Source: Candidatus Wildermuthbacteria bacterium RIFCSPHIGHO2_02_FULL_45_25 (GTDB lineage Bacteria; Patescibacteriota; Minisyncoccia; Minisyncoccales; UBA10102). Taken from it: a stretch of 35,304 nt of DNA. Made by a program: the position numbers and the translations under genes. Every line of letters starts with the position of its first letter. The stretch's first letter is position 1. Below, piece by piece: positions 973 to 28,355 of the stretch. The stretch is from NCBI GenBank assembly GCA_001823215.1, contig MHTV01000006.1, positions 1-35,304 of the forward strand, read 5' to 3'. The notes beneath the pieces were generated by a model. That model saw only the letters and a program-made list of their open reading frames with translations. It did no database searches and was not told where the DNA came from.

Positions 973-1116
973 TTACTTGCATTCCGAAATTCTTTCGCGC
1001 ATGAGGATATGGATCGCGCACGGAGCGCGACTGGCGCGAGTAAGAACAAAAATTCAGCAGAATTTTATGTGGTGATTCATACCCTCATGCGCGAAAGAAT
1101 TTCGGAATGCAAGTAA
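973..1116 (-). repeat. Hairpin-flanked intergenic element, copy A
   Basis: Arms 973-1015 and 1074-1116 are inverted repeats (41/43 match). Core 1016-1073 contains GGAGCGCGACTGGCGCGAG and AAATTCAGCAGAATTT. Confidence 0.9.
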
Positions 1117-2560: not shown

Positions 2561-3514
2561 TTAATCAAAAATCGTGGGCAGATATTCGTCAATCTCCCGT
2601 TGCTCTAAGTCGTAAAAGTATTTATTTCCTTCGTGAAGGTATGTCGCAAGATTGATCCCCACATATCTCCAATGCCACGGCTCAAAGATATAATACCCAT
2701 TCTTTTCAGGATACGAGAGCACAAACCCGTACTTGTACGCGTTTTTCCGCATCCATTCGTATGCCTGTGTTTTCTCAAAACCAGTAAGTTCGCCTACAAG
2801 CCCGGTCGTAATCAAATCAACCGTAGTCCCAAGCTGATGTTCAGAATATCCCTGATCGGCAGAAAACTGATTGGCGCTCCCTGCCCCGTATGTTACCGTA
2901 TAGGCGGATTTGATTGATGCCTGTTCGTCAAACGAACGATACGCGGATTTCACATACACATCCACGACATCTACCTTTGCCGCATCCAAAAGATCTTTGA
3001 GATGCGGCCACACAAGCATGTGAATCTGCTGGATTGAACGATCGCTGTACACATAATCACTATGAATTTCCACAAGTCGTTCTGGAGCATAATGTTCGTT
3101 TAAGAAAAACACTTTGGAATATTTTTGCAAGAGTTCCGGGTCTGTTTTGCTTAATTTTTCGAGCGTAATAACAGCTCCTGAAATCTCGCCTACGGTTTGC
3201 TCAAAGCCGCCAAGCCGATTCTGCACCGCTTCCAAATTTCTCCGCAAGTTCTCAATTGTTTGTTCTGCGGTATATAAAGTATCTGAAAGAGTTACTGTTT
3301 TTTGTTCCAAATCGAAAGCTCGCATGGAAAGCGCATCAGTTTTTTCAGAGAATGACACGTTGGCAGCAGCAAGCTCTTCCGTAAGGTGTTCTGCATACAA
3401 AGAAAGCTCTGAAATGCGCAGATAGCCATACGTAAAAAGCCCGCCCAGTATGATCAGAGCAAAAAAAATCGACAGACCAATGGCAATCCAACGATTAAGA
3501 TTTCTGTGCTTCAT
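2561..3514 (-). CDS. D-alanyl-D-alanine carboxypeptidase, VanY/M15B type, membrane-anchored
   Basis: SAYRSFDEQ...GYSEHQLGTTVDL...EPWHWRYVG M15B motifs. N-terminal TM helix after MKHRNLNRW. Confidence 0.88.
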   Translation of the reverse strand: MKHRNLNRWIAIGLSIFFALIILGGLFTYGYLRISELSLYAEHLTEELAAANVSFSEKTDALSMRAFDLEQKTVTLSDTLYTAEQTIENLRRNLEAVQNRLGGFEQTVGEISGAVITLEKLSKTDPELLQKYSKVFFLNEHYAPERLVEIHSDYVYSDRSIQQIHMLVWPHLKDLLDAAKVDVVDVYVKSAYRSFDEQASIKSAYTVTYGAGSANQFSADQGYSEHQLGTTVDLITTGLVGELTGFEKTQAYEWMRKNAYKYGFVLSYPEKNGYYIFEPWHWRYVGINLATYLHEGNKYFYDLEQREIDEYLPTIFD

Positions 3515-3518
3515 ATAC

Positions 3519-3651
3519 TTTGAATTACGAAACAAGTACTTATGAGGTTTAGAGAACGTTGGGAGCGCGACTGGCGCGAGCACCAGGAATTTTTCAGCAG
3601 AAAAATATCCGTGTTCTCAAAACCTCATAAGTACTTGTTTCGTAATTCAAA
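3519..3651 (-). repeat. Hairpin-flanked intergenic element, copy B
   Basis: Arms 3519-3557 and 3613-3651 (38/39 match). Core 3558-3612 contains GGAGCGCGACTGGCGCGAG and TTTTTCAGCAGAAAAA. Confidence 0.9.
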
Positions 3652-3714
3652 ATCATATACGAATTGTACCACAACAAAACGGAATGGAAATCTTCTCCCT
3701 ACCTAAAAAGAAAC

Positions 3715-6871: not shown

Positions 6872-7005
6872 AAAGAAAGAAGGACGGCAGTGAGCCGTCC
6901 CCTTCTCTCGCGTAGCGATATCTTGTCTCTTGGCATAAAGACAACATATCGCTACGCGAGAGTTTCCGTCAGATAAAGAAAAGAACTTCTGGTACCCTCG
7001 AAGAA
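6872..7005 (-). ncRNA. Candidate small RNA or leader with 24-bp hairpin and terminator
   Basis: Promoter TTGATA (7036-7041)-18-TATCAT (7012-7017). Hairpin arms 6905-6928/6939-6962 (23/24). Then GGACGGC-tcact-GCCGTCC-TTCTTTCTTTT (6871-6900), all on the minus strand. Confidence 0.5.
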
Positions 7006-17893: not shown

Positions 17894-17916
17894 ATTTTTC
17901 CTATATCTTTGAATTA

Positions 17917-17952
17917 CGAAACCAAAAAACCGACCCCCGCCGGTTTTTGGTT
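17917..17952 (-). terminator. Intrinsic terminator of the RNase H gene
   Basis: Minus strand AAACCAAAAACCGG-cggggg-tCGGTTTTTTGGTTT. Confidence 0.75.
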
Positions 17953-27560: not shown

Positions 27561-28201
27561 AATTCTTGCAGCGTTATTGCCCCATCTCCATCGCCCAATA
27601 CAGGAGAAATTGCCGTGCCATTGAATGTTCCATCCGAAAAATCTCCTTCAGTATCTTCAATCCATTCTTTGCTCTCCCAATTGGCAAGGTACATTGTCCG
27701 CATAAGTTCCTGGGATTGACCATGGCTTGTTTCCCATTGCACGCGCACAATTGCTTGTTTTGAATGCGCGTCCGTAAACAATCCCGGGCACGAGGTTATC
27801 TGATTTGAGGCGTCCAGGCACACAGGATATAGAAAGATCGTTCTTGTGAAATTTCCTGCGATATCAAAACTTCCCTCTCCCTTTAGCGTCCATTCCCCGT
27901 TCTGGATATCCACTCCGCTTTCGCTGTATTTCAGTTCATTCCATCCCTTATTCCGAATAGACAACAATGCTTCCATGCCTTCCTGCGCGACAAATCCCGC
28001 TTGCGCGTATTCATCCCCGCGCGTAAGCGCGGTAAATCCTCCCGTTGCCAAGCTCCCGAAAGCGGTAACAAACAGCGCAAACAGCGCCAACGCGAGAATT
28101 ACCTCCAACAAGCTTTGTCCTTTTGTATGAAAAAACTTTGAATTACAAAACTCTTTCCACGACGGCTTTTCAGTATGCAAAGCAACAAAACATTTGCGCA
28201 T
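27557..28201 (-). CDS. PilV/GspI-like minor pilin
   Basis: KGQSLLEVILALALFALFVTAFGSLATGGFTALTRGDEYAQAGFVAQEGMEALLSIRNKGW. Start codon uncertain. Confidence 0.85.
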   Translation of the reverse strand: MRKCFVALHTEKPSWKEFCNSKFFHTKGQSLLEVILALALFALFVTAFGSLATGGFTALTRGDEYAQAGFVAQEGMEALLSIRNKGWNELKYSESGVDIQNGEWTLKGEGSFDIAGNFTRTIFLYPVCLDASNQITSCPGLFTDAHSKQAIVRVQWETSHGQSQELMRTMYLANWESKEWIEDTEGDFSDGTFNGTAISPVLGDGDGAITLQEL

Positions 28202-28219: not shown

Positions 28220-28355
28220 CTTGAATTACGAAATACTTTGCGCCACAGGGTATGAAGCGCGCACGGAGCGCGACTGGCGCGAGTAAGAACAAAAATTCAG
28301 CAGAATTTTATGTGGCGCTTCATACCCTGTGGCGCAAAGTATTTCGTAATTCAAG
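28220..28355 (-). repeat. Hairpin-flanked intergenic element, copy C
   Basis: Arms 28220-28260 and 28315-28355 are a perfect 41-bp inverted repeat. The core is almost identical to copy A. Confidence 0.93.

Follow-up and report, generated by a model that had tools for sequence, protein, structure and literature searches.

A dispersed family of short palindromic elements with IS982-type ends and a conserved two-hairpin core in Patescibacteria

Like the element described here, ERIC, Correia, RUP, and BOX repeats are short, multicopy intergenic palindromes whose middle is conserved and may take an optional insert; their ends and target duplications are unlike its own. Integron attC sites resemble it as palindromes of variable sequence in which unpaired features of one strand are conserved. 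MITEs derived from IS982 are known in Cardinium, for example, MITECca01 of ~240 bp (PMC9769881). The present element occurs three times (copies A, B, and C) in the window, the whole 35,304-nucleotide stretch analyzed from a Candidatus Wildermuthbacteria genome. A search of the literature on Patescibacteria MITEs, structured RNAs, and non-autonomous elements found no relevant paper. We consider it probable that the copies are non-autonomous IS982-type MITEs of ~120 to 165 bp, a length that leaves no room for a transposase gene, and that they carry an older, Patescibacteria-wide folded module.

Copies in the window and in its genome

The initial annotation described three intergenic copies with long inverted arms around a shared core, and all three were located where it placed them (Table 1). 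They are the window's three longest inverted repeats (44 nt at 98%, 43 nt at 95%, and 39 nt at 97%). The reported near-identity of cores A and C is borne out, GGAGCGCGACTGGCGCGAG and TTCAGCAGAA are present in core B, and the predicted fold is indeed a long stem capped by a two-hairpin head (z = −5.7 and −3.9 for cores with short arms versus shuffled sequences). The limits of copy B are refined because a 7-bp target duplication bounds it. Copy A lies upstream of the gene for the exonuclease VII small subunit, and two genes of a pilin-type operon flank copy C. The window also holds two coreless palindromes, a perfect one of 25 bp with a 3-nt loop at 391 to 443 (AAAGAAGTGATACAAAAATCCCTCG-CGA-...) and one of 24 bp (96%) with a 10-nt loop at 6905 to 6962.

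Table 1. Coordinates and parts of element copies and solitary ends in the window
Feature	Position	Strand	Parts and remarks
Copy A, type-2 core	973–1116	+	43-bp arms, 41 matched, flank core; ends degenerate TTGCATTCCGAAAT
Core of copy A	1022–1067	+	P2 hairpin GCGC-GACTG-GCGC (1025–1037)
Core of copy A, P4	1049–1066	+	AAAATTC-AGCA-GAATTTT; conserved bulged A at 1067
Left target-site duplication of copy B	3511–3517		TCATATA
Copy B, type-1 core	3518–3652	+	IS982-type terminal inverted repeats CTTTGAATTACGAAAC / GTTTCGTAATTCAAAA, arms, core
Core of copy B	3562–3607	+	P2 GCGC-GACTG-GCGC; P4 ATTTTTC-AGCA-GAAAAAT (3589–3606); bulged A 3607
Right target-site duplication of copy B	3653–3659		TCATATA
Solitary exact end, coreless	17907–17921	+	CTTTGAATTACGAAA; probable truncated relative
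Solitary end, 1 mismatch	28136–28150	+	CTTTGAATTACAAAA; 70 bp ahead of copy C
Copy C, type-2 core	28220–28355	+	Arms 41/41 matched; ends CTTGAATTACGAAAT
Core of copy C	28265–28310	+	P2 GCGC-GACTG-GCGC; P4 AAAATTC-AGCA-GAATTTT; bulged A 28310

With up to three mismatches allowed, GGAGCGCGACTGGCGCGAG matches 60 places in the genome's own 868-kb assembly against 3 for a reversed control, which excludes chance for the family; one of the 60 (C7) proved not to be an element. About six further, divergent copies came from a covariance model built on 26 copies, and the genome search proposed in the initial annotation thus uncovers a dispersed family of ~65 copies in 868 kb. The majority core, that of copy B, is type 1 (GAGAACGTTGGGAGCGCGACTGGCGCGAGCACCAGGAATTTTTCAGCAGAAAAATATCCGTGTTCTC), and copies A and C have type 2 (GCACGGAGCGCGACTGGCGCGAGTAAGAACAAAAATTCAGCAGAATTTTATGTG). 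Several copies combine mismatched arms of two subfamilies (e.g., L043); short-read metagenome assembly may have scrambled some arms, so single chimeric copies should not be overread.

Transposition and IS982-family partners

Most copies terminate in the 16-bp sequence CTTTGAATTACGAAAC. An exact 7-bp direct repeat stands at the boundary of 9 of the 44 two-ended copies, against 0.26 expected with shuffled flanks; at most 3 exact 7-bp repeats were seen in any one of 5,000 shuffles, and flank base identity is highest at length 7. The initial annotation had also proposed comparing orthologous sites, and this yielded a clean empty site in a sister genome: the element at C1:17160-17298 of G019 is absent from the orthologous site of G018 (related genus), the filled site having ATAATATG twice and the empty site a single ATAGTATG. 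The empty site has no palindrome, so arms and core insert together. The same site contradicts a model in which arms are always copied from the target upon insertion. More orthologous sites in these two genomes vary in element presence, in both directions. Together, these results show that the main-type copies, which bear the terminal inverted repeats, transposed as units with 7-bp duplications. At one pair of orthologous copies in G018 and G019 (L110 versus L099:6319-6456), the P4 tip differs by compensatory pairs and loop (TCCAGCAGGA versus CTCAGTAGAG), which suggests conversion between copies.

Of 389 genomes sampled across the phylum, 8 contain the 15-mer TGAATTACGAAACTC. Four genomes, G384, G557, G604, and G242, have ~1-kb elements with an IS982-family transposase that are bounded by this 15-mer or its variant CTTTGAATTACGAAAC. 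The G384 and G557 proteins match PF13612 at 93 bits and NF033520 at 111.5 bits (below the equivalog cutoff of 130), and the copies in G242 and G604 were identified via similarity to the G557 protein. Three IS copies in G242, which is of the same order as the window's genome, have ends identical to CTTTGAATTACGAAAC at 16 of 16 positions (L322, L325, and L327); AAAATTA occurs twice around one and TTATTG around another. The target duplications elsewhere are CTCTATA (G604), CTATAAG (G557), and CTAATGGG (G384). Duplications at the IS copies thus measure 6 to 8 bp, mostly 7, the same length as the 7 bp of our copies. Target duplications, the empty orthologous site, and an IS982-family partner with identical ends show mobility and support the non-autonomous mobile element that the initial annotation had listed as one option.

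No match to an IS982-family transposase was found in the window's genome (G000), G018, or G019. Because the ends are shared with IS982 elements and the transposase is absent here, the copies behave as orphan IS982-type MITEs. Beyond the 16-bp ends, no match was found between IS and element interiors when compared by eye; lacking both a parental IS982 in this genome and an IS-like interior, the copies are not simple deletion derivatives. These two points weigh against the MITE reading, as does the finding of no clear target duplication at copies A and C. An IS982-family transposase, now absent from this genome, would have recognized the ends and mobilized the element in trans, with insertion into AT-rich intergenic gaps.

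A search of four genomes for DDE_Tnp_1 (PF01609) found nothing, and a half-site pair on contig C21 that resembled an IS was rejected since it has no transposase inside. Other sequences share the ends. Short elements in G521 (L311, L317, and L318) have GTCATTGCGA-type interiors replacing the core; a coreless perfect palindrome in the window's genome (L037, G000:C40:28924-28961) has the same ends and reads GACTTTGAATTACGCAA-GCAA-TTGCGTAATTCAAAGT, with a similar one in G252 (L297); and one IS982-type end (L310, G384:C16) lies inside a reading frame resembling, by eye, an IS1595-type transposase.

The 7-bp duplications also bear on mobilization as a REP/REPIN-type repeat by a resident Y1 (RAYT) transposase, a reading that we regard as very improbable. 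RAYT genes are present in G000, G018, and G019, but they are flanked by unrelated hairpins of their own (GTGGGGAC/GTCCCCAC and others) rather than by this element, and 7-bp target duplications do not agree with Y1 chemistry. A REP/REPIN identity is thus contradicted, the RAYT genes being tied to other REPs. The hairpins at the RAYT loci L132, L133, L135, and L136 are GTGGGGAC/GTCCCCAC, GGCAAG..TTATCCCCACCTTGCC, and GGGCACCTTGTGCTTAG.

Fold, distribution, and possible strand preference of the core

The head of the element consists of two hairpins, one with a GAC(U)G loop and the other with an AG(C/U)A loop and a bulged A. Across 38 diverse sequences (an earlier covariation set held 37), 99.2% of cells are paired and both sides have changed in 11 of 13 pairs; none of 500 shuffles matches this covariation, and slid controls fall far lower. 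P2 varies around its GAC(U)G-type loop as GCGC/GCGC, GCTT/AAGC, GCCC/GGGC, ACGC/GCGT, and GCAC/GTGC, and the P4 stem is variable along its length while the AGCA or AGUA loop and the bulged A are kept. A scan against Rfam found no family above its gathering threshold in the window and no plausible weak match in L009 or six relatives. The structured core proposed in the initial annotation is therefore a covarying two-hairpin fold with no Rfam match; further copies exist, and the likeness to an IS is confined to the ends. A second internal loop lies ~20 to 25 bp from the core in several lineages outside the window's genus. For the internal loop beside P2, a kink-turn was considered and, by eye, does not fit.

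An exact-pattern scan with one genome per species matched Nomura-, Yonath-, Vogel-, Taylor-, Kaiser-, Adler-, Zambryski-, Yanofsky-, Magasanik-, and Collierbacteria and WWE3. With strict filters, the model matched at least 15 of the 247 genomes searched in the order and at least 50 of the 389 sampled from the phylum, both counts being lower bounds. Most of these phylum-wide copies have arms unlike the window type. No exact core match was found in viral contigs, and three pattern matches outside Patescibacteria (two in Acidobacteria and one in Anaerolineae) lack the fold and appear to be chance matches. Thus, about one in every eight genomes sampled from this phylum, which is known almost solely from metagenomes, contains a structured element that Rfam lacks, and the family offers a case of a transposon carrying a deeply conserved fold.

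The loop conservation and helix covariation seen across the phylum would also suit a structured RNA, cis-regulatory or small, under selection at each copy, with dispersal incidental. Nearly all copies are intergenic, often only tens of bases from genes, and this tight placement fits such an RNA, as does an additional hairpin (CCCCTCACC-GNRA-like-GGTGG.AGGGG) at one place in 23 of 57 aligned copies, all of type 1. However, same-strand neighbors run against the element's direction in 24 cases and with it in 13 (crude ORF calls), which is no strong bias in orientation, and the distribution is patchy even inside one family. The arms, too, are unlike selected RNA in having A-C mismatches (100) as frequent as G-T (87). 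We therefore consider this reading unlikely; of the structured intercistronic RNA suggested in the initial annotation, the covarying fold stands, while a fixed role between genes is not supported, given the orientation data.

Without a G-U bias, arm pairing looks like a property of DNA, and the mismatch ratio is as expected for DNA-level pairing followed by neutral decay. Within the core, G-T mismatches outnumber A-C by 15 to 3 (P = 0.0075), a modest hint of strand dependence; these 18 cells share common ancestry, which counts against their use for the MITE reading. Because the phylum-scan pattern favors G-T over A-C in P2, these counts were redone on a restricted set, namely, copies found by the model or core pattern in the window's genome, G018, and G019. 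Under the preferred MITE reading, the cargo would be a separate, older module of ~60 nt, one strand of which folds into the two conserved-loop hairpins, and its role would most likely be that of a folded single strand (RNA or single-stranded DNA) recognized by a host or element protein.

Arms, tRNA-side copies, and related systems

Beyond the IS982-type subfamilies, most copies have arms unrelated to those of other copies yet near-perfectly paired; L084 to L086 have almost identical cores and unrelated arms. IS982 ends are missing from L041, L057, L085, L086, and other copies whose arms are unrelated, a point against the MITE reading. Other copies stand beside tRNA genes. At L175, L178, and L256 and in family f35 (G150, G156, and G157), a copied T-arm of the neighboring tRNA surrounds the core, the left arm being the inverse of the T-arm and the right arm its 3′ half plus acceptor end and flank; the adjoining tRNA is intact. 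L232 has a direct repeat of ~50 bp, three cores overlie two tRNA-Ser genes at L218, and L192, L176, L182, and L168 have copies of the tRNA 3′ end in place of the T-arm arrangement. A tRNA lies within ~100 bp in 3 of 19 automatically drawn loci, against roughly 0.3 expected by our estimate. At L216 (G150, 880 to 1090), the core interrupts the T-arm of a tRNA-Arg-like gene, possibly a broken tRNA gene. At L192 (505 to 880), a tandem second element downstream of tRNA-Lys has its loops swapped, with AGCA in the first hairpin and GACG in the second.

These copies suggest a second way of moving, and we can name no known element that explains it. One possible, if doubtful, account is that the core is or was itself the mobile unit, a folded single strand entering hairpin loops (tRNA T-arms, terminators, and palindromic MITEs), with the target or its inverted copy as arms and with IS982-type copies arising when the core entered a palindromic MITE. 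Such entry would explain the tRNA copies and the unique arms; the nearly identical cores within unrelated, near-perfect arms (L084/L085/L086), the cores inside T-arm copies at L175, L178, L216, L218, L231, L232, and L256, the direct repeats of tRNA 3′ ends of up to ~50 bp, and the coreless palindromes with IS982 ends (C40:28926 of the window's genome and L297 of G252) are all in its favor. However, the single fully resolved empty site had no prior hairpin and received arms and core together, so hairpin-loop entry is not the route by which the IS982-type copies spread. Moreover, the left arms of tRNA-side copies are closer to the inverse of the right arm than to the T-arm itself, and a comparison covering roughly one-third of the genome found, for the unique-arm copies, no empty hairpin whose arms match. 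More tentative still is the proposal that the core is an undescribed Patescibacteria mobile, strand-specific folded nucleic acid that enters hairpin loops, tRNA T-loops among them, and gains or rebuilds its palindromic arms at each site, with IS982-type ends as a later vehicle that amplified it here.

Returning to the MITE reading, long palindromes may be made and corrected at the DNA level via hairpin intermediates or template switching; the arms could then drift freely while the core stays conserved. Drifting yet perfectly paired arms against a fixed core make the family a natural test of DNA-level palindrome upkeep.

By its IS982-type ends and mobility, the element joins a known kind as a new member; its core fold belongs to no known kind. 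It shares with IS982 and IS982-derived MITEs the IS982 ends, the lack of a transposase gene, a high copy number in a reduced genome, and here a duplication of ~7 bp. It differs from those MITEs in that no parental IS is present in the genome and the interior is not IS derived but is a conserved two-hairpin fold, which occurs across Patescibacteria, often without these ends. Like REP/REPIN sequences with RAYT, it forms dispersed intergenic hairpins in a genome with RAYT genes, but those genes adjoin other REPs, and this element has target duplications and other hairpins. The duplications near tRNA T-arms recall the att sites of tyrosine recombinases. Finally, its conserved center and variable arms are the reverse of the integron attC arrangement.
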